A DNA stretch of 61,465 nt from an uncultured Lachnospiraceae bacterium (GTDB lineage: Bacteria; Bacillota; Clostridia; Lachnospirales; Lachnospiraceae): NCBI GenBank assembly GCA_900544445.1, contig UQVK01000013.1:1-61465 (forward strand). Direction: 5' to 3'. The position numbers and the translations under genes were made by a program. Of the stretch, positions 12,967-57,391 are shown piece by piece. Below the pieces are notes generated by a model. That model made no database searches. It was not told the origin of the DNA and saw nothing but the letters and a program-made list of their open reading frames with translations. Within the stretch, counting starts at the first letter, position 1, and every line of letters begins with the position of its first letter.

Positions 12967-12996
12967 GCCGCCTGCGGCGGCAGAAAAGAGGTAGTT
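12967..12996 (+). promoter_or_regulatory. Start-proximal GC hairpin with ribosome site (family copy 1)
   Basis: GCCGCC-TGC-GGCGGC (12967-12981) forms a perfect 6-bp stem. The purine-rich AGAAAAGAGG then leads to the creatininase ATG at 12997, 15 bases after the stem. The same arrangement recurs before five other genes in this window. Confidence 0.6.
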
Positions 12997-13782
12997 ATGA
13001 TTAAAAGATGGGAAAATTTGACAAGAGATGAAATTGCGGCTCTGGACAAGGACAAAACAATTGTTATGCTGCCCACATCCGCGACAGAACAGCATGGACC
13101 GCATCTTCCTGTGGGAACGGACGCAATCATATTGTCCACGCTGATTGACCGGATTATTGCGCAGGGGGACGAAGCATTTCCCAAGGGGAATCTGATTTTC
13201 GCGCCGCAGCTTCCGATCGGAAAGAGCAATGAACATATGGGATTTGCCGGAACGATTACCTTCAGCGCGCAGACATACTATGCCCTGCTTCATGATATTG
13301 CGAAATCCGTTGCGGCCAGCGGTTTTAAAAAGCTGGTGCTGTTTAACAGCCATGGCGGCAATACCGATATGCTGAATCTGATCAGCAGGGATCTGAGGAT
13401 TGACCTGGGATTGGACGTTTTTGTGATAGACTGGTGGTTTACCGATTTCTGGGCAGATGGGCTGAAGGGAATTCAGCAGTCCGGAAAATACGGCGTGTTC
13501 CATGCCTGTGAGCTGGAAACCTCTCTGATGCTGGAGGCGAGGCCCGAAACGGTACATATGGAACTCGCTGTGGATGAGGATCCTGCGGAAGCTTTCCGCG
13601 GTGACAAGTATGTTACGGTTTTCGGCCCGGTAAATGCAGGCTGGAAGACTGCGGATGTGACGAAGAGCGGCGTGATCGGAGCGCCTACCTTTGCCACGGT
13701 GGAAAAAGGTCAAAAGCTTTTTGATTACGCGTGCGAAAAGCTTCTTGATATATTTGCAGAAATTGCAGATATCAGTTACTGA
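12997..13782 (+). CDS. Creatininase-family amidohydrolase
   Basis: A metal-dependent hydrolase of cyclic amides in the creatininase/FAPy-deformylase/MftE superfamily. The 261-residue protein has the N-terminal motif LPTSATEQHGPHLPVGTD, with Glu and His metal ligands. Further ligands are in NSHGGNTDML and in HACELETSLML (the Glu-Thr-Ser segment near the end of the core). The ATG at 12997 is preferred over one at 12907 because of the GAGGT site in front. It stands between EcfT and an ECF S component, so the imported compound is probably an amide, lactam or formamide-type molecule that this enzyme opens. Creatinine itself is not shown by the sequence. Confidence 0.85.
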   Translation: MIKRWENLTRDEIAALDKDKTIVMLPTSATEQHGPHLPVGTDAIILSTLIDRIIAQGDEAFPKGNLIFAPQLPIGKSNEHMGFAGTITFSAQTYYALLHDIAKSVAASGFKKLVLFNSHGGNTDMLNLISRDLRIDLGLDVFVIDWWFTDFWADGLKGIQQSGKYGVFHACELETSLMLEARPETVHMELAVDEDPAEAFRGDKYVTVFGPVNAGWKTADVTKSGVIGAPTFATVEKGQKLFDYACEKLLDIFAEIADISY

Positions 13783-13811
13783 TGAAAAGCTTCTTTTGAG
13801 GAGGAAAAAAC

Positions 13812-14381
13812 ATGAAGAAAAAATTATCTTTTGTCAACATCATTTTCTTTGTTGTGTTTGGTGTTCTGACCGGTGTGCTGTGGGCATATCTGTGCCCGAT
13901 TCCGCTGATTCCCGGCGCTGTTCACTTCCGGACATTCGCATTCATCATTGTGGTGATCGGATATCTGTTCGGGCCTGTGACAGGCTTTTTCTCCGGATAC
14001 ATTGGAACCATCGTATGGGCGCTTCTGTCAGGAAACTTCATCCCGCTGCATTCCCCTCTTGCTGACGGCATTACCGTAGGCCTGTCCGCTGCGCTTCCGG
14101 CGCTGATCCATCTGAAGGGCGGCAAGAAAGATCTGATCGAGCTGATCGATGAGGGCAAGGGAAAATTCATCGGCGTGAGCCTGTTCTGGAGCCTTCTGTT
14201 CGGCGTGCTGATGATCCTCACCACCAGCCTTTCTCTTTCCTACTTTGCAGGACTGGATTACGCATATTGTGTCATCTGGATTGGAATCGCGGATGTGGTG
14301 CCGATCGCGCTTACCCCTTTTGTAGTGCTTCTGCTTGCAAAGAGAATGAAGAACATCAGAAACATCGTCCCTTATATCTGA
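13812..14381 (+). CDS. ECF transporter substrate-binding S component
   Basis: A 189-residue integral membrane protein with about five to six hydrophobic helices (LSFVNIIFFVVFGVLTGVLW at the N terminus). Its FGPVTGFFSGYIGTIVW stretch is typical of ECF S subunits. It would bind the substrate and plug into EcfT and the fused EcfA encoded upstream. It does not show the family marks I would use to call RibU, ThiT, BioY or QueT with confidence. Neighbourhood with a phosphoribosyltransferase and a creatininase-type enzyme points to a nitrogenous heterocycle as substrate, by inference. A strong terminator follows. Confidence 0.78.
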   Translation: MKKKLSFVNIIFFVVFGVLTGVLWAYLCPIPLIPGAVHFRTFAFIIVVIGYLFGPVTGFFSGYIGTIVWALLSGNFIPLHSPLADGITVGLSAALPALIHLKGGKKDLIELIDEGKGKFIGVSLFWSLLFGVLMILTTSLSLSYFAGLDYAYCVIWIGIADVVPIALTPFVVLLLAKRMKNIRNIVPYI

Positions 14382-14404
14382 TTTTTTTATAATAATACGC
14401 GTAT

Positions 14405-14457
14405 GACGGGGCTGTGAAGAAATGGTTTGTCATTTTTCACAGCCCCGTCTTTTATTT
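14405..14457 (+). terminator. Rho-independent terminator after the ECF unit
   Basis: A 14-bp perfect stem GACGGGGCTGTGAA/TTCACAGCCCCGTC, followed by CTTTTATTTT on the plus strand. It also lies just beyond the 3' end of the convergent regulator gene. Confidence 0.85.
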
Positions 14458-14832
14458 TCCGATTGCCTTATTTCCGATATGCCTTTTGATTGCTTCAAAA
14501 CTTTCCGCGCTGATCACATGCTCGATGCGGCAGGCATCCTCTGCGGCTGTCTCCGGATCGACACCGAGCCGGGTGAGCCATTCTGAGAGAAGTTCGTGCC
14601 GTTCATAAATCATTTCCGCAATGTTCCGCCCGCTTTCCGTCAGGGTGATAAAGCCTTCCTTCGATACGACAATATGCTCCTTCTCCCTCAGGTTTTTCAT
14701 GGCGACGCTGACGCTGGACTTCTTAAAGCCAAGCTCCTCGGCAATATCCACGGAACGGACTACCGGATGCTTTTTGCTCAGAATAAGTATGGTTTCCAGA
14801 TAGTTTTCTGCTGATTCGTTTACATGTATCAT
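14452..14832 (-). CDS. DtxR/MntR-family metal-dependent repressor
   Basis: A 126-residue metalloregulator that represses metal uptake genes when loaded with Fe2+ or Mn2+. The winged HTH occupies about residues 1-65 (SVDIAEELGFKKSSVSVAMKNL is the reader helix region). The dimerisation domain follows, with His/Glu/Cys metal-ligand candidates (ERHELLSEWL, CRIEHVIS). There is no C-terminal SH3 domain, so it is the short MntR-like form. The gene lies next to the feo operon, which carries three matching palindromes, so it is the natural candidate regulator. The start follows AAGGGTGAGC. Confidence 0.88.
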   Translation of the reverse strand: MIHVNESAENYLETILILSKKHPVVRSVDIAEELGFKKSSVSVAMKNLREKEHIVVSKEGFITLTESGRNIAEMIYERHELLSEWLTRLGVDPETAAEDACRIEHVISAESFEAIKRHIGNKAIGK

Positions 14833-14925
14833 ATGCTCACCCTTGTTTACCCTTCCTGTCTTTCTTCTGGCGGGCTGTCCGTAAAGGGATGCCCGGATGT
14901 GATCGAGGCGGACCGGAAAACATTC

Positions 14926-14976
14926 CGGCCGGCAGATTTTGTATTTATATTACCTTAAAACCTGCCGGCTGGCAAG
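14926..14976. repeat. Inverted repeat between the repressor and the Cys-rich gene
   Basis: GCCGGCAGATTTT and AAAACCTGCCGGC form a 13-bp stem with one mismatch around an AT-rich loop containing TATAAA on the minus strand. It may be a terminator for the Cys-rich protein gene or part of the repressor's promoter region. Confidence 0.4.
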
Positions 14977-15021
14977 CCTGTTTCCGGGACGAGAGGGAAA
15001 GTCTGGGGAGCCGGTTACGGC

Positions 15022-15396
15022 TCAGGATATGGATGTGACATGATAGCCTGCTTTTTCCACGGCATTTTTGAGAATGGAATCATCAATCTCCCGATCACAG
15101 GAAACTATGGCTCTGCCTCTGGAGAGATTTACCTGTGCGCTGACGCCGTCGATCCGGTTCAGGCTTTGTGTCACACCCACCGCACAATGCTCACAGTGCA
15201 TACCGTCTATGGCCAGCGTCCTTTTACGAATGACGGGGCCGTCCAGCTTTTTCTTCGCAGGAGAATGGCTGCCGGAGCAGCTTCCTCCTGCGGGACAGCC
15301 GATACATTTCGCACCGCTTTTTTTCGCCCTGATGATATAGAAAACAGCGCCGCCGACGATCAACGCCAGAATGACAGTTGCGATCAGATTTGTCAT
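15022..15396 (-). CDS. FeoB-associated Cys-rich membrane protein fused to HMA domain
   Basis: A 124-residue small membrane protein downstream of feoB. Residues 1-22 form a membrane helix (LIATVILALIVGGAVFYII). Residues about 28-48 carry the Cys cluster KCIGCPAGGSCSG seen in FeoB-associated proteins that take the place of FeoC. Residues about 58-124 form a heavy-metal-associated domain with GMHCEHC, a CxxC copper/zinc-type site. It lies 21 bases after feoB and is probably in the same operon. The joining of the two modules is less usual; stand-alone FeoB-associated proteins end after the Cys cluster. Confidence 0.82.
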   Translation of the reverse strand: MTNLIATVILALIVGGAVFYIIRAKKSGAKCIGCPAGGSCSGSHSPAKKKLDGPVIRKRTLAIDGMHCEHCAVGVTQSLNRIDGVSAQVNLSRGRAIVSCDREIDDSILKNAVEKAGYHVTSIS

Positions 15397-15417
15397 AGCC
15401 GTTTTCCACCTTTCTGC

Positions 15418-17427
15418 TTACGCATGAGCGTTCAGTTTATATTCTGCTGCAAATTCATGATCGGATACACGGATTCTCCAGATGATGATTGCCGCGAAGA
15501 TGAGCACCGCGATCAGGCCGGGAACAAAGCCGGTTCCCAGAGCGCCGGTCGTCACAAGAGTTCCGATCTGATATACCAGGAAGGCCACCGTATAACCGGT
15601 TGCAAGCTGGAGGCAGATTCCGCCAAGCAGCCATTTTCCGCTCTTCATTTCAGAATTCATCGCTCCGAGCGCCGCAAAGCAGGGCGGCGTATAGAGGTTG
15701 AACATCAGATAGGCGAGAGCCGCAACGGAGGTAAGCCCCAGTACGGAAGCCACATCGCCGCCTGCGCCTACAAGCTCCAGCGCTTCCGTATCGATCAGGT
15801 TTGTAACGCCGTAAACAACAGCCAGCGTGCCGACCACGTTTTCCTTGGCGATAAAGCCGGTGATTGCTGCAGCGGCAAGCTGCCATACGCCAAAGCCGAG
15901 AGGAATGAACAGGATGGCGAAGGGATGGGCAACGCTTGCCAGAATGGAAGTATTTTCCGCACCTTCCTCCACAAGCTGGAACTGCCAGTTAAAGGTCTGC
16001 ATGATCTGTACTACGGTGTTGCATACCAGAATGATGGTTCCGGCTTTGATGATATATGCCTTGCCGCGTTCCAGCATGGAAATGACGGCTCTTTTCAGGC
16101 TGGGAACCTTATATTCCGGAAGCTCGATGATGAAAAAGGATTTCCGGTACTTCTGTCCGGTGATTCTCTTCACCAGAAGAGCACCGAGGAAAATCAGAAC
16201 GATACCCACCAGATACATGGTAGCGGATACCCAGGCGGCATTGGAGAAGAATGCGCCCGCGAACAGCGCGATGACCGGAATCTTGGCGCCGCAGGGCATG
16301 AAGGGCGTCAGCATGGCGGTGGTACGGCGCTCTCTTTCATTACGGATCGTGCGGCAGGCCATGATTCCGGGAATCGCGCAGCCAGTGCCGATTACCATGG
16401 GGATGATGGATTTGCCGGAAAGGCCGACCCGCTTGAAAATCGGATCAAGAACAACAGTTGCGCGGGCCATATATCCGCAGTCCTCCAGCAGGGCGATCAG
16501 GAAATACATCACCATAACCAGAGGGAGGAAACCCACTACCGCGCCGACACCGCCGATGATGCCGTCAACCAGAATCGCGTACAGGAGCGGATTCGCGTTT
16601 TCCATAAGGCCGCCGACCCAGCCCTGGAAGGTTTCAATCCAGGCGACCAGCCAGTCCGCGATGTAGGTCCCGATTGTGGACTGGGATATGTAGAATACCA
16701 GGAAGATGATCACGGCAAAAATCGGAATGCCGATGATCTTATGGGTGATCACGCTGTCGATTTTATCCTGAAAGTTTTTATCCTTTGTAAGAACCTTTCT
16801 TTTCTCCACTTCCGAAACGAGACCGTTGACAAACGTAAAACGCTTTCTGTCAGCGGCTTCTACCGCGGCGCGGTCCTTCAAATCAATATCTTCCTGGACG
16901 TAAGGCGCCTTCTGTTCTGTACCGTTTACGGAAACGGCAGCCTGTACGACCTCCTTCAGGCCGTCGTGTCCGGAAGAGGTGGAGACGGTTTTAACGACCG
17001 GACAGCCCAGCTTTTCGGACAAAAGCTTTTCATTGATTTTCGTCTGTTTCCTGTCCGTAAGATCACTCTTGTTCAGAGCGACCACGACCGGAACGCCAAG
17101 TTCCAGAAGCTGTGTGGTGAAAAACAGACTGCGGCTTAGGTTGGTCGCGTCAACGATGTTGACGATCACATCGGGACGTTCGTTCCTTACATAGCTGCTG
17201 GTGATGCTTTCCTCCGAAGTAAAGGGAGACATGGAATAGGCGCCCGGAAGGTCTACCGCCACGAGCTCTTCGCCTCCGTCATAATAAGCTTTTCTGATCA
17301 GGCTTTCCTTTCTTTCGACCGTAACACCGGCCCAGTTTCCGACGCGTTCATTTCTGCCTGTGAGCGCATTGTACATGGTTGTCTTTCCGCTGTTGGGATT
17401 ACCCGCAAAAGCGATTCTCATACACAT
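15418..17427 (-). CDS. feoB: Ferrous iron transporter B
   Basis: GTP-dependent Fe2+ importer in the cytoplasmic membrane, 669 residues. The N-terminal G domain has G1 GNPNSGKT, G3 DLPGAYS and G4 NKSD. The C-terminal half has the paired Gate regions with membrane helices (CGYMARATVVLDPIFKRVGLSGKS, GTGCAIPGIMACRT). ATG at 17427 or the ATG six bases later could be used; AAGGAGG suits the second slightly better. It is preceded by a third operator-like palindrome in the feoA-feoB gap. Confidence 0.96.
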   Translation of the reverse strand: MCMRIAFAGNPNSGKTTMYNALTGRNERVGNWAGVTVERKESLIRKAYYDGGEELVAVDLPGAYSMSPFTSEESITSSYVRNERPDVIVNIVDATNLSRSLFFTTQLLELGVPVVVALNKSDLTDRKQTKINEKLLSEKLGCPVVKTVSTSSGHDGLKEVVQAAVSVNGTEQKAPYVQEDIDLKDRAAVEAADRKRFTFVNGLVSEVEKRKVLTKDKNFQDKIDSVITHKIIGIPIFAVIIFLVFYISQSTIGTYIADWLVAWIETFQGWVGGLMENANPLLYAILVDGIIGGVGAVVGFLPLVMVMYFLIALLEDCGYMARATVVLDPIFKRVGLSGKSIIPMVIGTGCAIPGIMACRTIRNERERRTTAMLTPFMPCGAKIPVIALFAGAFFSNAAWVSATMYLVGIVLIFLGALLVKRITGQKYRKSFFIIELPEYKVPSLKRAVISMLERGKAYIIKAGTIILVCNTVVQIMQTFNWQFQLVEEGAENTSILASVAHPFAILFIPLGFGVWQLAAAAITGFIAKENVVGTLAVVYGVTNLIDTEALELVGAGGDVASVLGLTSVAALAYLMFNLYTPPCFAALGAMNSEMKSGKWLLGGICLQLATGYTVAFLVYQIGTLVTTGALGTGFVPGLIAVLIFAAIIIWRIRVSDHEFAAEYKLNAHA

Positions 17428-17443
17428 TTTCCTCCTTCATTTT

Positions 17444-17460
17444 GATTAGCATAAACTAAC
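17444..17460. promoter_or_regulatory. DtxR/MntR-type box between feoA and feoB
   Basis: GATTAGCATAAACTAAC resembles the two boxes before feoA and contains the dyad TTAG...CTAA. It would allow separate metal control of feoB. Confidence 0.5.
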
Positions 17461-17495
17461 CACATGGTAAAAAAAACAGCCGAAGCCATTTTTTC

Positions 17496-17708
17496 TTATA
17501 TTGAAATAGCCTGCGCTAAATCAGTATCAATATTGTAGCGCCCGTCCTTAATGGAAACCACGCAGCCGCCCTTTAAATGGGAAACTACGGTAATGGGTTC
17601 TCCGCTGTAGCAGCCCAGAGAAAACAGAAAGGCTTCCAGATCCTCATCATCCGTTGCGATTTTCTGAATGATATATTCTTCGCCTTCCCTAGCGTCCAGT
17701 AAAGTCAT
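17496..17708 (-). CDS. feoA: Ferrous iron transport protein A
   Basis: A 70-residue SH3-like cytosolic protein required for FeoB function. The pattern LLDAREGEEYIIQKI...LEAFLFSLGCYSGEPITVV...NIDTDLAQAI is typical of FeoA. It begins a feoA-feoB-Cys-rich operon. Its promoter, in the 90 bases upstream, overlaps an operator, so repression in metal-replete cells is expected. Confidence 0.92.
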   Translation of the reverse strand: MTLLDAREGEEYIIQKIATDDEDLEAFLFSLGCYSGEPITVVSHLKGGCVVSIKDGRYNIDTDLAQAISI

Positions 17709-17744
17709 AAGAGCAGATAACCTCCTCTCATAAGATGATTTTCA

Positions 17745-17760
17745 GATAGTTTGAACTAAC
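17745..17760. promoter_or_regulatory. DtxR/MntR-type operator, proximal feoA box
   Basis: GATAGTTTGAACTAAC, a near-palindrome with core TAGTTTGAACTA, lies in the feoA leader. Its start is 29 bases from that of the distal box. Confidence 0.65.
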
Positions 17761-17773
17761 TGATCGATTCGTA

Positions 17774-17789
17774 GATAGTCTAAACTAAC
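17774..17789. promoter_or_regulatory. DtxR/MntR-type operator overlapping the feoA -10
   Basis: GATAGTCTAAACTAAC differs from the proximal box at three positions and covers the -10 hexamer of feoA. A bound metalloregulator here would block RNA polymerase. Confidence 0.68.
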
Positions 17790-17805
17790 AGGATGAATTT
17801 GTCAA
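17777..17805 (-). promoter_or_regulatory. feoA promoter
   Basis: On the minus strand, a perfect TTGACA (17805-17800) and TAGACT (17782-17777) are 17 bases apart. The -10 lies inside the distal operator box. Confidence 0.65.
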
Positions 17806-17820
17806 TCCCTTTTTCATTTG

Positions 17821-17849
17821 TTGTGGAATGGTTCCAAAAAGTTTATAAT
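17821..17849 (+). promoter_or_regulatory. Promoter of the YkgJ-family gene
   Basis: TTGTGG (17821-17826) and a perfect TATAAT (17844-17849) are 17 bases apart. Transcription would start near 17856, so both 30-base repeat copies lie in the leader. Confidence 0.6.
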
Positions 17850-17866
17850 GACAGAAAAGAAAAATG

Positions 17867-17896
17867 AAATGCCGCCTGACGGCGGCGGAAATGAGG
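17867..17896 (+). repeat. 30-base hairpin repeat, tandem copy A
   Basis: The unit AAATGCCGCCTGACGGCGGC, continued by GGAAATGAGG, is identical to copy B 88 bases downstream. It holds the 6-bp stem GCCGCC/GGCGGC and a ribosome-site-like tail. A 13-codon reading frame (GTG 17909 to TGA 17950) follows this copy. Within it is a separate 9-bp hairpin, GGAGAAAAC/GTTTTCTCC (17898-17920). Confidence 0.7.
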
Positions 17897-17954
17897 CGGA
17901 GAAAACCTGTGGTTTTCTCCTGGGGATTGTCCTTCGGCCAATTCCTCTGAAATA

Positions 17955-17984
17955 AAATGCCGCCTGACGGCGGCGGAAATGAGG
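17955..17984 (+). repeat. 30-base hairpin repeat, tandem copy B (start-proximal hairpin)
   Basis: An exact duplicate of copy A. Its stem ends at 17974, 15 bases before the ATG at 17990, and its tail GGAAATGAGGTAAGG supplies the ribosome site of the YkgJ-family gene. It belongs to the dispersed start-proximal hairpin family of this window. Confidence 0.7.
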
Positions 17985-17989
17985 TAAGG

Positions 17990-18658
17990 ATGGAGCGGGA
18001 AATTGATCTGGCGGAAGTATCTGATGGAAAGTTGTATGGCGCGGAGGATCTGGTGAAGGTTGGCTGCGGGGACTGCGCGGGCTGTTCGTCCTGCTGCAGG
18101 GAGACGGGAGACACAATCATTCTGGACCCTTACGATATCTGGGAGCTTGGCTGCGGCCTGAAAACGACATTTGCCGCCCTGCTGGAGGAAGGCAGAATCG
18201 AACTGAACATGGCGGACGGCGTAATTCTTCCGAACCTGAAGCTGAGAGAAAATGGAGAAGGCTGCAGCTTTCTGAATGAAGAAGGCAGATGTTCCATTCA
18301 TGCGTTCCGTCCCGGTCTCTGCAGGCTGTTTCCCCTGGGAAGAGTGTATGAAGAGGACGGCTTCCATTATTTCCTTCAGATTCATGAGTGTCATAAGGAA
18401 AACCGGTCCAAAGTGAAGGTGAAGAAATGGATCGGAATTCCGGAAATCAAACGTTATGAGGCATTTGTGCTTGCCTGGCATGATTATCTGAAACGGGTGG
18501 GCGATGAGGTGAAGCATGCGCAGGAGGAAGCGCGGATGAAGGAATTGACGATGTCCGTGCTGAAACTTTTTTATCTGCAGCCATATGAAGAGAAGGATTT
18601 CTACAGTCAGTTTTATGAGCGCCTTGCACGGGAAAAGAACAGCGGCGGTCAGTCTTAG
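17990..18658 (+). CDS. YkgJ-family cysteine cluster protein
   Basis: A zinc/iron-chelating cysteine cluster protein of unknown biochemical function. Residues about 23-33 carry CGDCAGCSSCC and residues about 92-118 carry CSFLNEEGRCSIHAFRPGLCRLFP; together they are the diagnostic Cys spacing of the family. The ATG at 17990 is preferred to the one at 17957, which lies inside the repeat hairpin; only the former has GAGGTAAGG in front. It is divergent from feoA across a gap holding the feo operators, so a link with metal status is possible but unproven. Confidence 0.85.
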   Translation: MEREIDLAEVSDGKLYGAEDLVKVGCGDCAGCSSCCRETGDTIILDPYDIWELGCGLKTTFAALLEEGRIELNMADGVILPNLKLRENGEGCSFLNEEGRCSIHAFRPGLCRLFPLGRVYEEDGFHYFLQIHECHKENRSKVKVKKWIGIPEIKRYEAFVLAWHDYLKRVGDEVKHAQEEARMKELTMSVLKLFYLQPYEEKDFYSQFYERLAREKNSGGQS

Positions 18659-18793
18659 AAAAAACTTAAGAAATTTTGTTCTTGACGAGGATTCTCTGTG
18701 GGGTTAATCTGTTAAAGAGACATTAAGAAATTATTACATATTCTGAAATCTTTTCTGAAAATTCGACAAAGGAAAATAAGGAGCAGGTTCCCC

Positions 18794-20347: not shown

Positions 20348-20351
20348 GATT

Positions 20352-31924: not shown

Positions 31925-31930
31925 TTGAAA

Positions 31931-31974
31931 TGCCGCCGGTCAGACGGCAACGGAAGCCGGCTGTGCCGGCTTTT
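31931..31974 (+). repeat. Paired hairpins before the alcohol dehydrogenase gene
   Basis: TGCCG/CGGCA (31931-31949) is a loose relative of the start-proximal hairpin family. A 7-bp perfect hairpin AGCCGGC-TGT-GCCGGCT follows directly. The gap holds no gene. The second hairpin has TTTT after it and may attenuate read-through from GH38. Confidence 0.45.
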
Positions 31975-43629: not shown

Positions 43630-43719
43630 GTGAAAAAGCAGACTGCAGAGAGCCGGCAGGGCCTTCTGTTTTGCAGAAGGGGCCGCGCTCTGTGCAGAAT
43701 GCGCATATTCAGCAAGGAA

Positions 43720-43747
43720 TGCCGCTTGCGGCAGAATGGAGATTATG
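43720..43747 (+). promoter_or_regulatory. Start-proximal GC hairpin with ribosome site (family copy)
   Basis: TGCCGC-TT-GCGGCA (43720-43733) forms a perfect 6-bp stem ending 14 bases before the ATG at 43748, with GAATGGAG between them. Confidence 0.55.
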
Positions 43748-46373: not shown

Positions 46374-46545
46374 AAATGCATACTTACATAAAGGCATTTC
46401 AAATCAGCCTTTGTCATTTCTTTATGATTTGTGCGTTCGCACATTCTTTTGGGCAGTTTCTGCCAGACACTCATTATCACATCGAATACGGGCAGGAACA
46501 GATGAAAAACGATTCTGTTTTTGACCTCTTTCTGCCGAAGAAAAA

Positions 46546-46576
46546 TGCCGCCATACGGCAGCGGAAGAGGAGGAAA
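46546..46576 (+). promoter_or_regulatory. Start-proximal GC hairpin with ribosome site (family copy)
   Basis: TGCCG-CCATA-CGGCA (46546-46560), then GCGGAAGAGGAGGAAA up to the ATG at 46577, 16 bases after the stem. Confidence 0.55.
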
Positions 46577-49925: not shown

Positions 49926-49962
49926 TTTCCTTTCCTCCAATTTGCCTTTATCAGATTTTCTG

Positions 49963-51474
49963 TCACAGGGTTACGCCCTGTTTGAAGATCGCCATATCAT
50001 GGAAGCCTGCCGCCTCCGATTTTACCTGTTCCCCGTTCGCAACGCGGAGAACATAGTCGAACAGCTGCTCCGAGAGCTCGGAGAGGGATGTCCCTTCCAG
50101 CAGTGCGCCGCAGTTGAAGTCGATCCAGTTTTTCTTCTTTTCATAAAGCGGCGTGTTGCTGGAAATCTTCACTGTGGGGACCGGGGAGGCGAAGGGCGTT
50201 CCCCGTCCGGTGGTGAACAGGACGATCTGTGCGCCCGACGCGGCGAGGGCGGTGGAGGCCACCAGATCGTTGCCGGGAGCGGACAGCAGGTTCAGGCCGC
50301 GGTTTTTCACGGGCTCTCCGTAGGAAAGCACGCCTTTTACCGGAGCGGAACCGGATTTCTGGGTGCAGCCGAGGGACTTGTCCTCCAGGGTGGAGATGCC
50401 GCCTTTTTTGTTGCCGGGAGACGGATTCTCATAAATGCTCTGGCCGTGGGAGGTGAAATAGTTCTTGAAATCGTTGATCAGCTTTACGGTCTGGTCAAAC
50501 AGCTCTTCATTTTCACAGCGGTTCATGAGAAGGGTTTCCGCGCCGAACATTTCAGGAACTTCGGTCAGGATGGTGGTGCCGCCCTTGCTGATGAGAAGGT
50601 CGGAAAAGCCGCCCACCGTGGGATTCGCCGTGATGCCGGAAAGTCCGTCTGAGCCGCCGCATTTCATGCCGATGACCAGCTCGCTGCAGGAGATGGGTTC
50701 CCGCTTCGCTTTTCCGGCATATTCCGCCAGGGAGCGGAGGATGGAGACGCCTTCTTCGATCTCGTCGTCACATTCCTGAGCCACCAGAAAACGGATCCGC
50801 TCGGGATCGTAGTCGCCGATATATTTTTTCAGTTCGCCGATGTTGCTGTTCTCACAGCCGAGCCCCAGCACCAGCACGCCGCCCGCATTGGGATGATGGA
50901 TCAGGTCGGCAAGGATCTGCCGCGTGTTGTCCTGATCTTCGCCCATCTGGGAGCAGCCGTAGGGATGGGAGAAGGAAACGACGGCGTCAATGCTGCCGCT
51001 GACCAGATCCTGAGCCTGTCTCGCGATTGCTGCGGCGACATCGTTCACGCAGCCTACGGTAGGGATGATCCACAGCTCATTGCGCACGCCTGCCTTTCCG
51101 TCTGAACGGCGATAGCCCTGGAAAAAAGCTTCTCCGGTGGCAGCCACCGACGGATGGGTGGGATGATAGGTATAGGAAAGTACCCCGTCCAGCGCAGTTT
51201 TCAGATTATGGGTATGTACGTGCGCGCCCTGCGGGATATCCGCGCAGGCAGTTCCGATGGGTTCTCCGTATTTGATGACGGGGGAACCGGCCGGGATATC
51301 CATAAGGGCAAACTTATGCCCGGCGGGGATATCCTCCTTCAGAAGAAAACTGGGTTCCCCATCGGTTTCGCTTGCCTGACCGGGATTGCTTTCGGAAATC
51401 CATGTCCCGGCTGACAGCGGCTGAAGCGCTACGGCAACGCTGTCCTTCGGATGGATTCGGATGCAGGTCTGCAT
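49963..51474 (-). CDS. uxaA: Altronate dehydratase
   Basis: Converts D-altronate to 2-keto-3-deoxygluconate. The 503-residue protein has an N-terminal SAF domain (about 1-95) and the C-terminal GD/altronate dehydratase domain (VGCVNDVAAAIARQA, SHPYGCSQMGEDQDNTRQIL, GMKCGGSDGLSGITANP with the Fe-binding Cys/His). Start follows AGGAGGAGGTAC. It is the first gene of the uxaA-uxaB operon, divergent from uxaC across a gap with LacI-type operators. Confidence 0.95.
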   Translation of the reverse strand: MQTCIRIHPKDSVAVALQPLSAGTWISESNPGQASETDGEPSFLLKEDIPAGHKFALMDIPAGSPVIKYGEPIGTACADIPQGAHVHTHNLKTALDGVLSYTYHPTHPSVAATGEAFFQGYRRSDGKAGVRNELWIIPTVGCVNDVAAAIARQAQDLVSGSIDAVVSFSHPYGCSQMGEDQDNTRQILADLIHHPNAGGVLVLGLGCENSNIGELKKYIGDYDPERIRFLVAQECDDEIEEGVSILRSLAEYAGKAKREPISCSELVIGMKCGGSDGLSGITANPTVGGFSDLLISKGGTTILTEVPEMFGAETLLMNRCENEELFDQTVKLINDFKNYFTSHGQSIYENPSPGNKKGGISTLEDKSLGCTQKSGSAPVKGVLSYGEPVKNRGLNLLSAPGNDLVASTALAASGAQIVLFTTGRGTPFASPVPTVKISSNTPLYEKKKNWIDFNCGALLEGTSLSELSEQLFDYVLRVANGEQVKSEAAGFHDMAIFKQGVTL

Positions 51475-51611: not shown

Positions 51612-51625
51612 TGTAAGCCCTTACA
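51612..51625. promoter_or_regulatory. LacI-type operator before uxaA
   Basis: TGTAAGCCCTTACA is a 14-base near-palindrome matching the uxaC-side operator at 12 of 14 positions. It lies just downstream of the putative uxaA -10. Confidence 0.7.
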
Positions 51626-51628
51626 TCA

Positions 51629-51657
51629 AAGGTACACCCGTTTGTTCGTGAAGTCAA
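51629..51657 (-). promoter_or_regulatory. Candidate uxaAB promoter
   Basis: On the minus strand, TTGACT and TACCTT are 17 bases apart, directly followed by the uxaA-side operator. The -10 is weak. Confidence 0.45.
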
Positions 51658-51665
51658 GTCTTTCA

Positions 51666-51694
51666 TTGACTTTTTTATTTATATGGAATATAAT
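51666..51694 (+). promoter_or_regulatory. uxaC promoter
   Basis: TTGACT (51666-51671) and a perfect TATAAT (51689-51694) are 17 bases apart. The operator begins 14 bases after the -10, ideal for repression. Confidence 0.75.
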
Positions 51695-51707
51695 GTAGAA
51701 AAAGCCT

Positions 51708-51721
51708 TGTAAGCGTTTACA
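51708..51721. promoter_or_regulatory. LacI-type operator before uxaC
   Basis: TGTAAGCGTTTACA, a symmetric operator of the LacI/CcpA type with central CpG, overlaps the expected uxaC transcription start. The LacI regulator encoded at 53.3-54.4 kb is the likely ligand-dependent repressor. Confidence 0.75.
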
Positions 51722-51747
51722 TTAAATTAAGAAAGGGAGAGGCAGAT

Positions 51748-53163
51748 ATGAAAGCATTTATGGACAGGGACTTTTTACTGAGTACGGAAACGGCGAAGAA
51801 GCTTTTCCACACATATGCGGAAACCATGCCGATTCTGGACTATCACTGTCACATCAATCCGCAGGAGATCGCGGAGGACAGGAAATTCGACAACATCACA
51901 CAGGTATGGCTGGGAGGGGACCATTATAAATGGCGTGCCATGCGTTCCAATGGTGTGGAGGAGTATTATATCACCGGAAACGCGCCTGACAGGGAGAAGT
52001 TTCAGAAGTGGGCGGAAACGCTGGAGCTCGCCATCGGCAATCCGCTCTTTCACTGGAGCCACCTGGAGCTGCAGCGCTTTTTCGGCTATACCGGTGTGCT
52101 GAACGGTGAGACCGCCGGGGAAGTCTGGAATCTCTGCAATGAGAAGCTTCATGAGGACAGCATGAGCGTCCGCAATCTGATTCGTCAGTCCGGTGTGACG
52201 CTGGTGTGCACCACGGATGATCCGGCCGATGACCTGAGATGGCATAAGCAGATCGCAGAGGATAAGAGCTTTGAGGTACAGGTGCTTCCCGCCTGGAGAC
52301 CGGACAAGGCCATGAACCTGGAAAAGCCGGATTACGCAGATTATCTGAAAAAGCTGGGCGAAGCGGCAGAAATGGAAATCGGAAGCTTTGCCGGGCTGAA
52401 GGAAGCGCTGAAGAAGAGGATGGCCTTCTTTGCGGAAATGGGCTGCCGCGCCAGCGACCATGCCCTGGAATATGTAATGTGCGTTCCGGAGACGGATGAA
52501 AATCTGGAGAAAATTTTTGCGAAGCGTCTTCGCGGGGAGCGGATCAGCAGGGAAGAGGAGATAAAGTTCAAGACCGCCTTCATGCTGTTCGTGGCCGGCG
52601 AATATGCCCGCCTTGGCTGGACGATGCAGCTTCATTACGGCTGTAAGCGGGATAACAATACGGCGATGTATCATCTTCTTGGGCCGGATACAGGCTTTGA
52701 CTGCATCAACAACTATGCGCCGTCCGCACAGCTTGCGGATTTTCTGGATCTTTTGAACAGGGAAGGAAGCCTGCCGAAGACGATCATTTACAGCCTGAAC
52801 CCCAACGACGATGAGTCGATCGGAAGCATCATCGGCTGCTTCCAGAATTCGGATGCGGTGGGCAAGATTCAGCAGGGCTCCGCATGGTGGTTCAATGACA
52901 ACAAGACGGGAATGATGAAGCAGATGACTTCCCTGGCGAACCTGGGACTGCTCGGAAATTTCGTCGGCATGCTGACGGATTCCAGAAGCTTCCTTTCCTA
53001 TCCCAGACATGAATACTTCCGCAGAATCCTCTGCGAACTGGTTGGAGGCTGGGTGGAAAACGGCGAGTTCCCGGACGATGAGAGAATGCTTTCCCGTATT
53101 ATTAAGGGAATTTCCTATAATAATGCGGTGCGCTATTTTGGATTTGATCTGGAAGAAAAGTAA
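51748..53163 (+). CDS. uxaC: Uronate isomerase (glucuronate/galacturonate isomerase)
   Basis: Converts glucuronate to fructuronate and galacturonate to tagaturonate, feeding UxaB. The 471-residue amidohydrolase-superfamily protein has PILDYHCHINPQEIAEDRKFDNITQVWLGGDHYKWRAMR (HxH metal motif) and MQLHYGCKRDNN. The ATG follows AAAGGGAGAGGC. It is divergent from uxaA-uxaB and controlled from the same gap. Confidence 0.95.
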   Translation: MKAFMDRDFLLSTETAKKLFHTYAETMPILDYHCHINPQEIAEDRKFDNITQVWLGGDHYKWRAMRSNGVEEYYITGNAPDREKFQKWAETLELAIGNPLFHWSHLELQRFFGYTGVLNGETAGEVWNLCNEKLHEDSMSVRNLIRQSGVTLVCTTDDPADDLRWHKQIAEDKSFEVQVLPAWRPDKAMNLEKPDYADYLKKLGEAAEMEIGSFAGLKEALKKRMAFFAEMGCRASDHALEYVMCVPETDENLEKIFAKRLRGERISREEEIKFKTAFMLFVAGEYARLGWTMQLHYGCKRDNNTAMYHLLGPDTGFDCINNYAPSAQLADFLDLLNREGSLPKTIIYSLNPNDDESIGSIIGCFQNSDAVGKIQQGSAWWFNDNKTGMMKQMTSLANLGLLGNFVGMLTDSRSFLSYPRHEYFRRILCELVGGWVENGEFPDDERMLSRIIKGISYNNAVRYFGFDLEEK

Positions 53164-53190
53164 GCCGGACGCGGCATGAGAGTTAAAATG

Positions 53191-53262
53191 GCCGGGAGGC
53201 AGGTGAGAACAATCGTTTTTGGTTACGCTGTGACCAAAAACTGAAAATCACCGCTTCCCGGC
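53191..53262. repeat. Nested inverted repeats between uxaC and the LacI gene
   Basis: The inner 12-bp stem GTTTTTGGTTAC/GTGACCAAAAAC (53215-53241) is flanked by GCCGGGAG/CTTCCCGGC. The genes are convergent here, so it is probably a terminator without a long T-run. Confidence 0.5.
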
Positions 53263-53295
53263 TGTTTCATATGTGTGCCTGACGGCGTCTGCTTT

Positions 53296-54372
53296 TTAAG
53301 GCTGAGGTTCCCTGCATTTTGTGGTTGCCCTGCGGATCAGGTTGGCGGAATACATGGTGCGTTCCGGTACATCCTTTCCTTCCAGAACCTGCATGAGCAG
53401 AGAAACGGCGGTGGTGCATAAGAATTCCACCCGGTTGTCTGCCGTGGTGATTTCCGGAGTGCTGCAGATGGAGAGCAGGGAATTGTTGTAGCCGGTGATC
53501 TGAATGTCCTCCGGAATCCGTTTCCCCGCGCCGAGCGCGTATTTGACGGCACCGGCGGCAAGCTCGTCATCGGTCGCAAGACAGGCGTCAAAGGAAACGC
53601 CGCGCGCTTCCAGATCCCGCAGAAAACGGGCGGTCTCCGGAATGCCTGCCGGGCAGAGAAAGGCGCGTTCGTCTTCCGGATTTCCACCTTCCACGAGAGC
53701 ATGCTTTGAAGAAGTATGCTGTTCCGAAGAATCCGGCCCTTTTGGCGCATGCTCTGTAAGCGCGCGGCAGAAACCGGAAAGCTTCTGTTTTCCGCTGTAG
53801 CTTAAGGAACGGTAGAGAAAAATCGGACGTTTACAGCCAAGCTCAAGCAGCTCTTCCGTCATCTCCTTTACAGCGAGAGCGTCGTCGCAGACAACGGAGT
53901 AGGCGCCGCTTCCGGAAAGGACGCCGTTCAGGAGAAATACCGGAACCTTTTTTGCCGCGTCATACAGATAGGCGTTGTCCTCAGCCTTTTCCTCGATGAA
54001 CTGGGAGCCTGCCAGAATCAGGGCATCCACGTTTCGGGACATAAGAAGCTGAAGGTATTTTTCCTTTTCCTCCTGATTGTAGCCGGTGCAGCAGAGCATG
54101 GAGGCATAGGAATTTTTCCAGAGCTCCCGCTCCAGCAGGTAAATGACCCGTGCCAGATAGATGTCAGAGGAGTCGGCGCAGAGAATGCCAACGGTGCGCA
54201 TGGTATTCAGCCCGAGTCCGCGGGCGAAGGCATTTGGTGTATAGCCATTTTGCTCCATGACTTCAAGCACCTTCTGCCTGGTGGTTTCGCTGACCTTGTC
54301 ACTTCCGTTCAGGACCCGGGAAACCGTAGCGATGGACACGCCTGCCAGTTTGGATATATCGTAAATATTCGT
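53296..54372 (-). CDS. LacI-family repressor, probable uronate regulator
   Basis: A LacI/GalR repressor of about 359 residues. The full HTH reads NIYDISKLAGVSIATVSRVLNGSDKVS, but its first half precedes the first ordinary start codon (GTG at 54339). With GTG the protein would lack HTH helix 1. The ribosome site AAGGGAGG lies seven bases before an ACG codon at 54372, where a standard LacI protein would begin with Met-Asn-Ile-Tyr-Asp-Ile. ACG is therefore either a rare start or a mutated ATG. The ligand domain contains FDACLATDDELAAGAVKYAL. It probably binds the two TGTAAGC-type operators in the uxa gap. Confidence 0.82.
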   Translation of the reverse strand, partial: TNIYDISKLAGVSIATVSRVLNGSDKVSETTRQKVLEVMEQNGYTPNAFARGLGLNTMRTVGILCADSSDIYLARVIYLLERELWKNSYASMLCCTGYNQEEKEKYLQLLMSRNVDALILAGSQFIEEKAEDNAYLYDAAKKVPVFLLNGVLSGSGAYSVVCDDALAVKEMTEELLELGCKRPIFLYRSLSYSGKQKLSGFCRALTEHAPKGPDSSEQHTSSKHALVEGGNPEDERAFLCPAGIPETARFLRDLEARGVSFDACLATDDELAAGAVKYALGAGKRIPEDIQITGYNNSLLSICSTPEITTADNRVEFLCTTAVSLLMQVLEGKDVPERTMYSANLIRRATTKCREPQP

Positions 54373-54426
54373 AAGAAGTCCTCCCTTCAGGGGCTGATGC
54401 CAATGATAATCGAATAAGCTGGCTTT

Positions 54427-54455
54427 ATTATAGCAGGCTTTTTCAGGATTGTCAT
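54427..54455 (-). promoter_or_regulatory. Promoter of the LacI gene
   Basis: On the minus strand, ATGACA and a perfect TATAAT are 17 bases apart, about 55 bases before the ACG codon. Between this -10 and 54339 there is no in-frame ATG, GTG or TTG. Confidence 0.65.
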
Positions 54456-54505
54456 TCGAATTCCGGGAAGGGAGCGCGCATACTATTTAGAAATCGGAGG
54501 AAATT

Positions 54506-55465
54506 ATGGAAACATTTCGTTTTGCAGTTATGGGAGCGGGTAATATCGGGAGAAAATTCTGTGAGGCAGCGCGCATGGCCGGTTATGAGGCTGCGGCTGT
54601 GGCGAGCAGATCCGTGGAGAGAGCCGAAAAATGGGCGGCTGAGAATAAGGTGAAGAGCGCATACGGAGACTATGAACAGATGCTGGAAAAAGAAAAGCCG
54701 GACTGCGTTTACATCGCCACGACGCCGGATTCCCATTACGAGCTCGCCATGCTGTGCCTGGATCATGGCGTTCCGGTTCTGTGTGAAAAAGCAGCCTTTT
54801 TAAACAGCGCGCAGGCACGGGAGGTGTTTTCCAGATCGGAAAAGGAAGGAATCTTTGTGATGGAAGCGCTCTGGAGCCGGTTTCTTCCGGCAGTGAAGCA
54901 GGCGGGGGAGTGGATTGCCCGGGGGTATGTGGGAAAGCCTTCCTTTGCGCAGATCGATATCGGCTTTCTTGCCCCTCCGGAGGCCGGAAACCGTTACCGG
55001 AACCCGAAGCTGGGCGGCGGCGCGGCCTTTGACATCACTGTTTATGCCTATGAGATTGCAAGATTTCTCCTGGGACGGGAAGAAAGCCTTGCGGCATCCG
55101 CAGTCTGGGGGCCCACAGGGGTGGATGTGACGGATCATGTGGTTCTTCATTTCCCGGAAATGTGCGCTTCCCTTACCACAAGCTTCGATGCGGCTCTGGA
55201 GGAAAAGGCGGTGATCTACGGAGACCGCGGGCGGATTGTGCTTCCTCATCCGCATTATGCGTCGGAGGCCTTTTTCTATCCGCAGGATGGAGGAGCTATG
55301 ATTTCCTTCCGTGATACGGAGACGAAAAACGGCTTTCTCTATGAAATTCAGGAGACCGTTTCCTGCATCCGCGAGGGCCGGACGGAAAGCCGGGTGGTGC
55401 CCCACTCGCTCACATTGTCCTGCGCAGAGCTGTTTGACCGGATTATGGAAACGAAGCCGGTCTGA
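54506..55465 (+). CDS. Gfo/Idh/MocA oxidoreductase, DHDH/xylose dehydrogenase-like
   Basis: A 319-residue NAD(P)-dependent sugar oxidoreductase. The Rossmann start is FRFAVMGAGNIGRKFCEAARM, and the catalytic Lys is in PVLCEKAAFLNS, with Ala in place of the common Pro of the EKP motif. FVMEALWSRFLPA and GAAFDITVYAYEIARFL match the dihydrodiol/D-xylose dehydrogenase branch. The start follows GGAGGAAATT. It is divergent from the LacI gene and may share its regulation. Confidence 0.87.
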   Translation: METFRFAVMGAGNIGRKFCEAARMAGYEAAAVASRSVERAEKWAAENKVKSAYGDYEQMLEKEKPDCVYIATTPDSHYELAMLCLDHGVPVLCEKAAFLNSAQAREVFSRSEKEGIFVMEALWSRFLPAVKQAGEWIARGYVGKPSFAQIDIGFLAPPEAGNRYRNPKLGGGAAFDITVYAYEIARFLLGREESLAASAVWGPTGVDVTDHVVLHFPEMCASLTTSFDAALEEKAVIYGDRGRIVLPHPHYASEAFFYPQDGGAMISFRDTETKNGFLYEIQETVSCIREGRTESRVVPHSLTLSCAELFDRIMETKPV

Positions 55466-55468
55466 AAA

Positions 55469-56158
55469 TCAAAGGGGAGGCCTGCGGCCAAAGAAGCTGT
55501 CCTCCGGTACCTCCCGTTCCTCGTAACCGCGCCGGAAGGAGGTGCGGGAGGGATTTGCGGAACAACCTGCTCCCGAACAGCCCGTTCCTGTGTAGCCTGT
55601 TCTGGAGTAATCCGTTCCGGGAACGCCTGTTCCGGAGTAGCCGGATGAATATCCGCTTCCCGAATAGCCTGTGTCCGGATTTCCTGTTCCTGTACGGGCA
55701 TTTCCCAAACGGCCGGCTCCGGCCGCCATACGCGGGGCGTTTTTCGCGTCTGTACGACGGTTTTCCTGTTCCTGAGAGGAAAGCCCATGCAGCAGGCAGA
55801 AAACGCCGCCGATGAGCAGGCCGAGAAAGAAGAAGCAAAGCGCGATGCCGATGGAAAAGGCGATGCCGGAGCGGGAGGGGCTGAAAGAGGTGAGAAAGGC
55901 GGAAATCACAAGGAAGCCACCTCCGGCAGCCGACAGACTGACACAGCAGGAAACGGAACGCAGGGACCTCCGGGCGGCAGACAGCGAGCCGAGGAGCAGA
56001 GCGGAAAGCAGGACGCAGGAAAAGGCGATCAGCAGACCGAAAATGCGGGAGGATGTATCAAGAACGAGAATGCCGCCCGCAGACAGGGTAAAAATGACGA
56101 AAGCCAGCAGCATGCTCAGAACGAGGGTAAGGATGCAGAAGCGGGTACTATTTTTCAC
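55469..56158 (-). CDS. Membrane protein with Gly/Thr/Ser/Tyr repeat tail
   Basis: A 229-residue protein with four hydrophobic segments in the first about 130 residues (FCILTLVLSMLLAFVIFTLSAGGILV and three more). It then has a cytosolic or extracellular tail of about 95 residues built from short Tyr/Gly/Ser/Thr repeats such as GYSGSGYSSGYSGTG and GYTGTGCSGAGCS. I do not recognise a family. Its 3' end lies 3 bases from the end of the convergent Gfo/Idh gene. The repeat tail resembles low-complexity linkers rather than an enzyme. Confidence 0.65.
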   Translation of the reverse strand: MKNSTRFCILTLVLSMLLAFVIFTLSAGGILVLDTSSRIFGLLIAFSCVLLSALLLGSLSAARRSLRSVSCCVSLSAAGGGFLVISAFLTSFSPSRSGIAFSIGIALCFFFLGLLIGGVFCLLHGLSSQEQENRRTDAKNAPRMAAGAGRLGNARTGTGNPDTGYSGSGYSSGYSGTGVPGTDYSRTGYTGTGCSGAGCSANPSRTSFRRGYEEREVPEDSFFGRRPPL

Positions 56159-56249
56159 AGGGTTCTCCTCTCTTGAAAATGGCAGTCAGGAAATCCTTCT
56201 TGCCTTATTCTATTCAGGAGGGGAGAGGAGGGTTACAGGCAACATATAT

Positions 56250-57167
56250 TCACCCTTCCCCGAAACGTACATGCTCCAGCTTTTTTGGCCCCCCGGCGTT
56301 GAAGGAAGGCAGCACGCCCCGGTCCTTCAGGGGGGAATGGCCCAGGATGCGGCGGTAGCTGCGGTAGAAGGAGGAGTAATCCCCAAAGCCTGCGCGGACG
56401 GCGGCTTCCTGGGCGCTTAGGCCTCCTGTGAGCAGCTCCTGGGCGAGGATCACCCGCTTATGGAGCAGGTAATCGAAGACCGTGGTCCCGGTGGCCCTGC
56501 GGAACACCTTGTTCAGGTGATGCTTGCTGATGTAGAAGCGTTCGGAAAGCTGATCCAGCGTGACCGGTTCTCCAACATGGCGGTTCAGGTAGAGAAGGAT
56601 GTCGGAAACGGTGTCGGCGCTGCCGGTTTCCGTAGAAGGGACGGAGACCTCCCGGGACATGGAAACGATTCGTGCAAGCAGAGCCTCCACGTAGATGGGA
56701 AGGAGGCGGGTCCGCAGGGCTTCCGCCTGATCCGCGCAGTCGGCGAGCGCCTCGAAGCAGCTTACGATACCATGCTTCTCCACCTGTTCAAAGTAGATGT
56801 CCGCGTTCCGCCTGTCCGGCGAAGGAAAGGCGGACAGAAGAAAAGACCTCCTTTCAGCGGAAAGGATATCCGGATGAAAATGGATGGAATATCTCCGGTA
56901 GGGCATGTCGCTATTAACCCGCACGCCGTGAAAACAGTGCGGGGAAAGAAGCAGCAGGCTGCCCGGCGTGGGGCGGTACTGCTTTCCTTCCACCAGATAG
57001 TCCGCATCCCCTTCCAGAAAGAGATAGACCTCATAAAAATTGTGGCAATGCAGGGAATAGGATTCCATTGCCTCCCGGGTGGTGCTGTAGCTGAAGCTGA
57101 CCTGGTCCGTGTTGATATGTGCACTCGTTGTGGCCTTTCTGCCATCTTTTTTCTCGTCAGAGCCCAT
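56250..57167 (-). CDS. AraC-family regulator with cupin domain
   Basis: A 305-residue regulator. The cupin sensor (about 30-120) has YSLHCHNFYEVYLFLEGDADYLVEG. The double HTH (about 195-290) has VTLDQLSERFYISKHHLNKVFRRATG and SAQEAAVRAGFGDYSSFYRSYRRILGHSP. ATG at 57167, five bases after TGGAGG, is preferred over 57212. It is divergent from the isomerase/oxidoreductase cluster starting at 57392, which it probably activates. A perfect 6-bp hairpin (57192-57205) lies upstream of its ribosome site. Confidence 0.88.
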   Translation of the reverse strand: MGSDEKKDGRKATTSAHINTDQVSFSYSTTREAMESYSLHCHNFYEVYLFLEGDADYLVEGKQYRPTPGSLLLLSPHCFHGVRVNSDMPYRRYSIHFHPDILSAERRSFLLSAFPSPDRRNADIYFEQVEKHGIVSCFEALADCADQAEALRTRLLPIYVEALLARIVSMSREVSVPSTETGSADTVSDILLYLNRHVGEPVTLDQLSERFYISKHHLNKVFRRATGTTVFDYLLHKRVILAQELLTGGLSAQEAAVRAGFGDYSSFYRSYRRILGHSPLKDRGVLPSFNAGGPKKLEHVRFGEG

Positions 57168-57361
57168 TTCTGCCTCCATTCTGCCGCCTAAGGCTGCGCG
57201 CAGCCCTGACATACAAAAGCTGCTGCTGTCTTTCGGACATTTTTCCCTAAGAAACGGCTTATTATCAGCTTACTTCACGATCGCTATATTTGCAATAAAA
57301 AAGTGCACATCTGCAATGGCTTTTTACAGAATGACAGGCTATAGTAACAATAAAAGGAAAA

Positions 57362-57391
57362 GCCGCCTGTCGGCGGCGAAAGGAGAGGAAG
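57362..57391 (+). promoter_or_regulatory. Start-proximal GC hairpin with ribosome site (family copy)
   Basis: GCCGCC-TGTC-GGCGGC (57362-57377), then GAAAGGAGAGGAAG up to the ATG at 57392, 14 bases after the stem. Upstream are TTTACA (57326-57331) and two TGCAAT motifs that may be AraC sites. Confidence 0.6.

Follow-up and report, generated by a model that had tools for sequence, protein, structure and literature searches.

Hairpin-rich interspersed repeats that probably occupy translation-initiation regions in Eisenbergiella and other Lachnospiraceae

Introduction

The usual view of small bacterial repeats is that functional sequence stays free of them. REP and REPIN elements with RAYT transposases are palindromes with a short conserved foot sequence, both dispersed and clustered, and REPs lie mostly away from start codons. 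Riboswitches and leader RNAs that control translation form another class of structured sequence at this end of genes. In Streptococcus pneumoniae, BOX, RUP and SPRITE are short, dispersed non-coding repeats for which strong RNA structure is predicted, judged by the authors to be parasitic elements likely to affect co-transcribed genes; BOX is modular and has terminal inverted repeats that are likened to an insertion sequence (PMC3049150). In Beggiatoaceae, more than 100 dispersed sets of TAACTGA repeats stand, mostly in forward orientation, just before the start codons of genes that share no function, and these 7-nt direct repeats overlap the position expected for the Shine-Dalgarno sequence (SD), rarely together with an SD (PMC4679880). 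Here we analyse a stretch of 61,465 nt from an uncultured Lachnospiraceae bacterium (contig UQVK01000013.1 of GCA_900544445.1; "the window", with coordinates on the forward strand). A first-pass annotation had noticed a GC-rich hairpin and a purine-rich tract 15, 15, 15, 14, 16 and 14 nt before six start codons, and re-reading bore out hairpins, tracts and spacings at all six sites. In Eisenbergiella this hairpin closes a dispersed modular repeat, F1, and a second, unrelated family, F2, turned up in the same leader position while we were sorting leaders. Judging from the sequences, both families are probably short non-coding, hairpin-rich interspersed repeats of a mobile type that occupy translation-initiation regions.

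How do F1 and F2 compare with the described systems? F1 contains dispersed palindromes of ~20–30 nt, as REP/REPIN–RAYT systems do. The conserved hairpins of F2, and its loop-tail pairing whose 3′ strand adjoins the SD, recall riboswitches and leader RNAs; F1 and F2 differ from these in occurring in many copies per genome, before unrelated genes and without an Rfam match in the loci scanned. Several module types in variable tandem number, as found in F1, also characterize BOX in the part of that paper drawn on here. Anchoring to SD and start codon and an SD carried by the element belong to F1 and F2 and are absent from the same partial description of BOX, RUP and SPRITE (PMC3049150), and terminal inverted repeats, which BOX has, were not seen by eye in the aligned ends of our elements. 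As far as the available portion of the Beggiatoaceae report goes, F1 and F2 share with TAACTGA the placement before start codons of functionally unrelated genes, and differ from it in being structured units of ~86–180 bp that end in an SD.

Sequences and models

A tblastn-confirmed scan with the window's YkgJ-like protein returned eight related loci and placed the window in the genus Eisenbergiella (Lachnospiraceae). The eight genomes, labelled G001–G008, comprise the closest relative, the uncultured Eisenbergiella metagenome-assembled genome (MAG) Chicken_7 (G001; 99% protein identity), five Candidatus Eisenbergiella MAGs (77–85%) and two Butyrivibrio genomes (51–53%). G001 and the window are close but mosaic, with long blocks at 81–99% DNA identity. 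Genome-wide statements use 40 stretches of G001 (753,669 bases of ~3.3 Mb), which together with the window make 815,134 bases; gene starts come from our own simple gene caller.

The covariance model for F1 (R1) was trained on 48 copies, 45 of them picked by script for a perfect hairpin and a purine-rich tail (start codon not required) and three being short-stem copies of the first-pass annotation; matches were taken at E<0.01 and counted with the training copies included. The F2 model (R2) was built from 15 copies and has the SD and ATG columns at its ends, which favours finding an SD and an ATG but not an open frame. Removing nine places fetched twice from 79 R2 matches left 70 distinct F2 copies from 29 other genomes; these are strong copies, from best-match loci and 40 stretches chosen from match lists, and not a random draw. 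Surveys with R1 and R2 across genomes used stricter filters, by which weak matches are lost.

Results

F1 is a modular repeat anchored at start codons

Read in the sense of the downstream gene, a full F1 unit opens with an SD-like tract and CGG or CCGG; hairpins B and C follow, then an AT-rich linker (like TCTGAAATAAAAT), hairpin A (GCCGCC/GGCGGC) and, leading to the start codon, a purine tract (like GGAAAGAGG). In many copies hairpin A stands alone; B-C-A units form single, double and triple arrays. Among the matches listed for G001, many copies are paired or tripled at distances of 80–111 bp. The loops of hairpin A are often identical within one array, and identical B hairpins recur at unrelated loci. 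An SD-like motif precedes 17 of 25 B-C-A units at the 5′ end (10% expected).

The pattern GCCGCCN2-6GGCGGC occurs 149 times in G001 as compared to 10 times for a reversed control pattern, with corresponding counts of 178/19, 139/30, 74/19, 91/19 and 66/15 in the five other Eisenbergiella genomes and 1/0 and 0/0 in the two Butyrivibrio genomes. R1 found 73 matches in the 815 kb of window and G001 stretches, and 50 of these end within 15 nt of a called start, against 1.15% of random positions. The cassette noticed by the first-pass annotation is real, and its preference for start codons extends far outside the window. An open frame of at least 50 codons follows 57 of the 73 matches, by a lenient test that 20% of random positions, and 21 of the 73 matches on the reverse strand, also pass.

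On inspection, 54 matches lead into a credible start (the 50 called ones and four where the caller had chosen an in-frame start further up), 16 into another unit, two are cut by fragment ends and one, possibly false, lies inside a gene (locus L076, 7911); for the 66 matches outside the window, the respective numbers are 48, 15, two and one. Seven matches passed the open-frame test without a called start: four adjoin the ATG of a long frame (260–471 codons), and the others are an upstream tandem unit, a copy that leads into F2 and the match in a gene. A metagene of 649 leaders has peaks of hairpin 3′ ends near −16, at −48 to −35 and near −72: the interval from −20 to −13 holds 53 ends, that from −48 to −35 holds 48 and that from −74 to −67 holds 26, where block shuffles give ~3, ~4 and ~2, respectively. 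F1 genes also lie further from the same-strand gene upstream (median 142 nt, n=33) than other genes do (53.5 nt, n=456), as expected from inserted units.

What F1 conserves is in part its structure rather than its sequence: stem variants of hairpin A such as GCTGCC/GGCAGC and GCGGCC/GGCCGC occur, though double changes are scarce (9 of 591 cells, in two of six pairs). The stems of B-C-A units came out of register in a MAFFT alignment that was left out of the pair counts, and their variety is not independent evidence because the units had been picked for perfect stems.

F2 is a structured RNA-like element in the same position

F2 comprises three hairpins and a covarying loop-tail pairing, a predicted pseudoknot of nine pairs between the hairpin-2 loop and a segment that ends ~3 nt before the SD. 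Across 15 aligned copies, 97.4% of cells are paired and double changes affect 22 of 43 pairs (shuffle mean 13.9), figures that carry an advantage over slid controls in that the structure was read from one of the 15 rows. The loop-tail helix is 100% paired in these copies, with five of its nine pairs invariant and three doubly changed. In the 70 copies outside this alignment, loop and tail change together (CCGGAGCGT/ACGCTCCGG, CCGCAGGCGT/GCGTCTGCGG, CCGAGAACGT/ACGTTCTCGG, TCTGAGCAA/TTGCTCAGA): complementarity to the own tail averages 7.7 nt as opposed to 5.8 nt for permuted tails (maximum 6.4 in 150 permutations), and is 6 nt or less in 15 of the 70, including all five copies from genome G039 and three whose tail was misplaced by the script. 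A nine-nucleotide loop fully paired in place would be strained, so the helix may form partly or alternate with hairpin 2. Conserved pairing with compensatory changes adjoining the SD is seen in F2, and is weak for hairpin A of F1. We had considered the 5′ end of F2 as a start-stop mini open reading frame (GTG TGA) and rejected this, because many Eisenbergiella copies lack it.

A shortened F2 variant occurs in G039 (L159, L164, L171, L176 and L181; 29 matches at E ≤ 0.001), with ends like GGTGCTAAAGCACCGGAATCGAGGTTAATATG; the loop-tail pairing is absent in the five copies read.

Placement of F2 was first assessed on 18 sites found through the hairpin-2 signature alone, with neither SD nor ATG required. 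A called start lies 60–180 nt downstream at 11 of the 13 such sites in the gene-called set (18% of intergenic positions), and an SD-like motif stands just 5′ of the element at 11 of the 18 (15% expected). Of the 70 R2-found copies, 68 run into a start followed by an open frame of 40 codons or more; 63 bear an SD-like motif on the 5′ side, as do 17% of intergenic windows from the window plus G001 set, and 63 an SD on the 3′ side. The 5′ and 3′ SD tracts are more alike when they belong to the same copy than when they come from different copies in a genome (p = 0.0012 over 8 bases, 0.0019 over 11 bases), a comparison made on 38 of the 70 copies, hand-picked from genomes with several.

Copies in the window

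The window holds the following copies and sites (all R1 scores are those of training copies).

12967–12996, plus strand: F1 hairpin A (12967–12981) and purine-rich SD, 15 nt to the ATG of a creatininase gene (start 12997; Pfam Creatininase); R1 39.4 bits
17857–17900, plus strand: upstream tandem F1 hairpin A (17871–17886) and SD-like tract; R1 43.6 bits
17898–17920, plus strand: F1 hairpin B (GGAGAAAACC TGT GGTTTTCTCC)
17922–17947, plus strand: imperfect F1 hairpin C (GGGGATTG..CCAATTCCTC)
17945–17989, plus strand: F1 linker, hairpin A (17959–17974) and SD, 15 nt to a CxxCxxCC (YkgJ-like) gene (start 17990); R1 48.6 bits
25603–25646, minus strand: F1 hairpin A (25633–25618) and SD, 15 nt to a MATE gene (start 25602); R1 31.1 bits
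38884–39025, plus strand: F2 element that runs into the SD and ATG of gene 39023 (KduI/IolB family by Pfam); R2 97.2 bits, E 4.5e-26, one of the 15 aligned model-building copies
43707–43747, plus strand: short F1 hairpin A (43720–43733) and SD, 14 nt to gene 43748, whose product has no Pfam match; R1 25.9 bits
46533–46576, plus strand: F1 hairpin A (46546–46560) and SD, 16 nt to a PDDEXK_2-like gene (start 46577); R1 36.1 bits
51512–51546, minus strand: possible decayed F1 copy (ATGCCGCCTGACAGCA), ~38 nt before the gene starting at 51474; weak, without an R1 match
54424–54505, plus strand: empty leader of a MocA-family gene (ATG 54506), in which CGGAGG and the ATG follow a promoter-like TATTAT (by eye)
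57348–57391, plus strand: F1 hairpin A (57362–57377) and SD, 14 nt to TIM-barrel gene 57392; R1 38.4 bits

The genes behind these elements belong to unrelated Pfam families; the PDDEXK_2-like assignment scores under the family cut-off, and the gene caller had put the start of that gene at 46502. The tandem copy at 17871–17886, overlooked by the first-pass annotation, lies 88 bp before the second YkgJ hairpin, and the 35-base neighbourhoods of the two are 97% identical. The F2 element before gene 39023 had likewise been overlooked. In the window copy of F2, hairpin 1 is truncated, hairpins 2 and 3 are present and the loop-tail pairing reads CCGGAGCGT/ACGCTCCGG.

Decayed hairpins (TGCCGCCGGTCAGACGGCA, AAGCCGGCTGTGCCGGCTT) were seen at 31930–31972 before gene 32007; the same leader has a full F1 unit in G006 and an F2-like end in G003. 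The hairpin GGTCTGCGCAGTAAATGCGCAGACC (or its complement) recurs identically in unrelated places, at window 25723—121 nt before the MATE start—and at L068 11659 and L057 204. Another dispersed long palindrome of G001 (like TTTTTTATACGATAGGAAA..TTTCCTATCGTATAAAAAA, stems of ~19–20 bp) was seen at L050 14532, L065 212 and L067 8070 and 16865, in one case joined directly to an F1-like hairpin A. Two further G001 loci (L041 ~11026–11280, L047 ~11850–11990) share a third repeat with common ACAGTTCACTC and GTGAACTGTAA ends (by eye), which looks like a classical inverted-repeat element.

Orthologous leaders are filled, empty or stacked

The MocA-family gene 54506 illustrates the contrast between empty and filled leaders. 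In the window its leader runs from the promoter-like TATTAT to CGGAGGAAATT ATG without an element; in G001, the promoter-like DNA is kept, and F2 is flanked by a GGAGG upstream and by another, new one that precedes the ATG. Before TIM-barrel gene 57392, the window has hairpin A, SD and ATG, G001 has A followed by B, and G013 has A, SD, F2, SD and ATG. F2 behind hairpin A and its SD is clear at L143 and weaker at L074 (F1 match of 23.1 bits); at L070, F1 is preceded by a short F2-like end and not by a complete F2.

Several other genes vary likewise. Gene 35004 has no unit in the window (15-nt gap), one in G003 and two in G006. At gene 48420 the window and G005 are empty and G013 has three units; the gene at L049 has one in G001 and none in G013. 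The SD of gene 20352 lies within the upstream gene in the window, and two A hairpins precede the gene in G001. The YkgJ leader has two A hairpins in the window and one A without B or C in G001; its stems are changed in G003 and G004, and G002 has no hairpin. The MATE gene is preceded by TGCCG/GCCGC stems in the window, G001 and G002 and by GCCCC/GGGGC-type stems in G003–G005; G006 and G013 have none. The creatininase stem is kept in G005 and G006 and broken or missing in G002 and G013. Of the two signs that would have refuted the first-pass reading, copies scattered without preference for start codons were not seen, and loss of the stem from orthologous leaders was: these often have no stem or hold a different element.

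F1 is abundant in few genomes, F2 is broader

In G001 and 60 relatives, R1 found 74 to at least 104 F1 copies in 10 genomes, six of which are the named Eisenbergiella genomes, one to three copies in seven and none in 44. This restriction to 10 of 61 genomes, along with the orthologs that often lack the stem, argues for a lineage-specific repeat expansion rather than an ancient initiation device. F2 was found in 22 of the same 61 genomes; in a sample of 299 genomes from the family, 48 carry it, 20 of them with at least 10 copies. On these counts F1 seems to have expanded in one clade, and the spread of F2 is broader and patchy. In the left flank of L197 (G217, a 7.4-Mb genome), an F1-like hairpin with an SD-like tract (GTGCCGCCAGCGTCAGCGGCGGAATGGGTGA) stands just upstream of F2, so that F1-like stems may occur outside the F1-rich genomes.

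At gathering score, Rfam gave no match anywhere in the window, none at seven F2-bearing loci and none to F1 or F2 at six G001 loci, where only 6S RNA was found (RF00013, 62.1 bits; L040 11848–12033). A permissive scan of window 17700–18100 yielded two long non-coding RNA matches at chance level. For the loci scanned, a known RNA family was therefore rejected. A phage origin was likewise rejected: one exact F2 and one F1 pattern had no match in viral contigs.

Discussion

What are these elements? The sequences show start-codon anchoring, modularity and SD-like tracts at both ends of many units, and also filled and empty orthologous leaders, F2 positioned after the SD of F1, abundance of F1 in a single set of relatives and covariation in F2. 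We propose that a unit would enter at the ribosome-binding site. The SD-like tract on its 5′ side would probably be the former SD, and the unit would close with its own terminal structure and SD, followed by the gene's start codon; initiation spacing would be kept because the unit brings its own SD before that codon. Further units might stack in tandem or on one another. We infer that units move rather than merely duplicate or get deleted, that the SD region is their actual target, and that they persist either because insertion there is nearly harmless or because it tunes translation or mRNA stability. Alternatively, the SD region may be the sole spot where insertion is tolerated. In a stronger version, mobile structured RNA elements target the ribosome-binding site itself, insertion duplicates or re-supplies the SD, and the gene gains a portable translation-control leader with initiation kept, F1 and F2 having converged on this way of life in Lachnospiraceae; this version we put forward only tentatively.

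Several observations weigh against mobile repeats. No mobilising enzyme was found in a search that covered Y1 (PF01797) transposases: seven of the 10 F1-rich genomes have no match and the other three have two each. The control search was positive in five of 14 named genomes. The assemblies are drafts, so that absence is not firm; still, we rejected an origin from RAYT or IS200-IS605, and F1-rich genomes differ in this respect from REP/REPIN–RAYT systems. The 5′ SD motif, by our pattern, is absent from eight of 25 F1 units and seven of 18 signature-found F2 sites, and the left end of the first unit before gene 35004 in G006 lacks an SD. Exact flanking repeats, of the kind that target-site duplication by a MITE would leave, occur in few F2 copies only. 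Stacking is clear in one direction only, some filled and empty leaders could reflect deletion or leader exchange, and tandem F1 copies can arise by slippage.

The latter idea can be extended: F1 might be a tandem palindromic DNA repeat spread by slippage and gene conversion between leaders, without dedicated mobility, its position near the SD being what selection tolerates. The spacing and the shared A loops of the arrays fit such a process, as do the differences in leader length between close relatives. It does not fit the presence of F2 where relatives have an empty orthologous site or only F1, the identical B hairpins at unrelated loci or the sharp −16 peak instead of a broad intergenic spread, and we regard this explanation as quite improbable. 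Chance, or GC-rich terminator hairpins near start codons, would be simpler still. Some GC hairpins occur anyway, and the lenient open-frame test is passed by a fifth of random positions. This explanation, to which we had given next to no credence, is refuted by the control-pattern, start-proximity and shuffle counts; by eye, moreover, no T tract follows the stems.

More weight belongs to the view that F1 and F2 are cis-regulatory leader RNAs kept by selection for control of translation or mRNA stability, with dispersal secondary. The paired changes and loop-tail complementarity of F2 and the fixed distances of hairpins from starts would follow from it. F2 could even be built like a switch, in which the pre-SD segment pairs either with the hairpin-2 loop, leaving the SD free, or, as CUCC/CUUC, with the SD, masking it. 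Speaking against this view are the unrelated families of the downstream genes in the window and the many orthologs without an element. Palindrome-repairing replication can give paired changes, and those seen here could also have come from it. Nor does predicted SD accessibility change. Folding of 120-nt pieces, which is blind to pseudoknots, gave an SD unpairedness of 0.485 in F1 leaders (n=49), 0.489 in leaders without F1 (n=467) and 0.479 with the region from −45 to −15 shuffled (n=48; p = 0.94 for F1); F2 leaders reached 0.409 as compared to 0.489 in others (p = 0.22). A general initiation insulator that keeps the SD open, as the first-pass annotation had suggested for F1, thus gains no support from predicted accessibility, and we consider selection for a regulatory role unlikely as the primary explanation.

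Among the papers screened, no title or abstract opening described F1 or F2, although coverage of subscription papers was thin and this is weak evidence of novelty. F2 adds an RNA structure without a match in the Rfam copy searched and reaches 48 of the 299 sampled genomes of the family. If read correctly as mobile repeats, the two families sit in the interval from SD to start codon, where the non-coding sequence of a gene is most sensitive, and do so by bringing along a terminal SD. If true, this would offer parasitic repeats a route to being nearly harmless at ribosome-binding sites, and the translation of many genes might be rewired at once.

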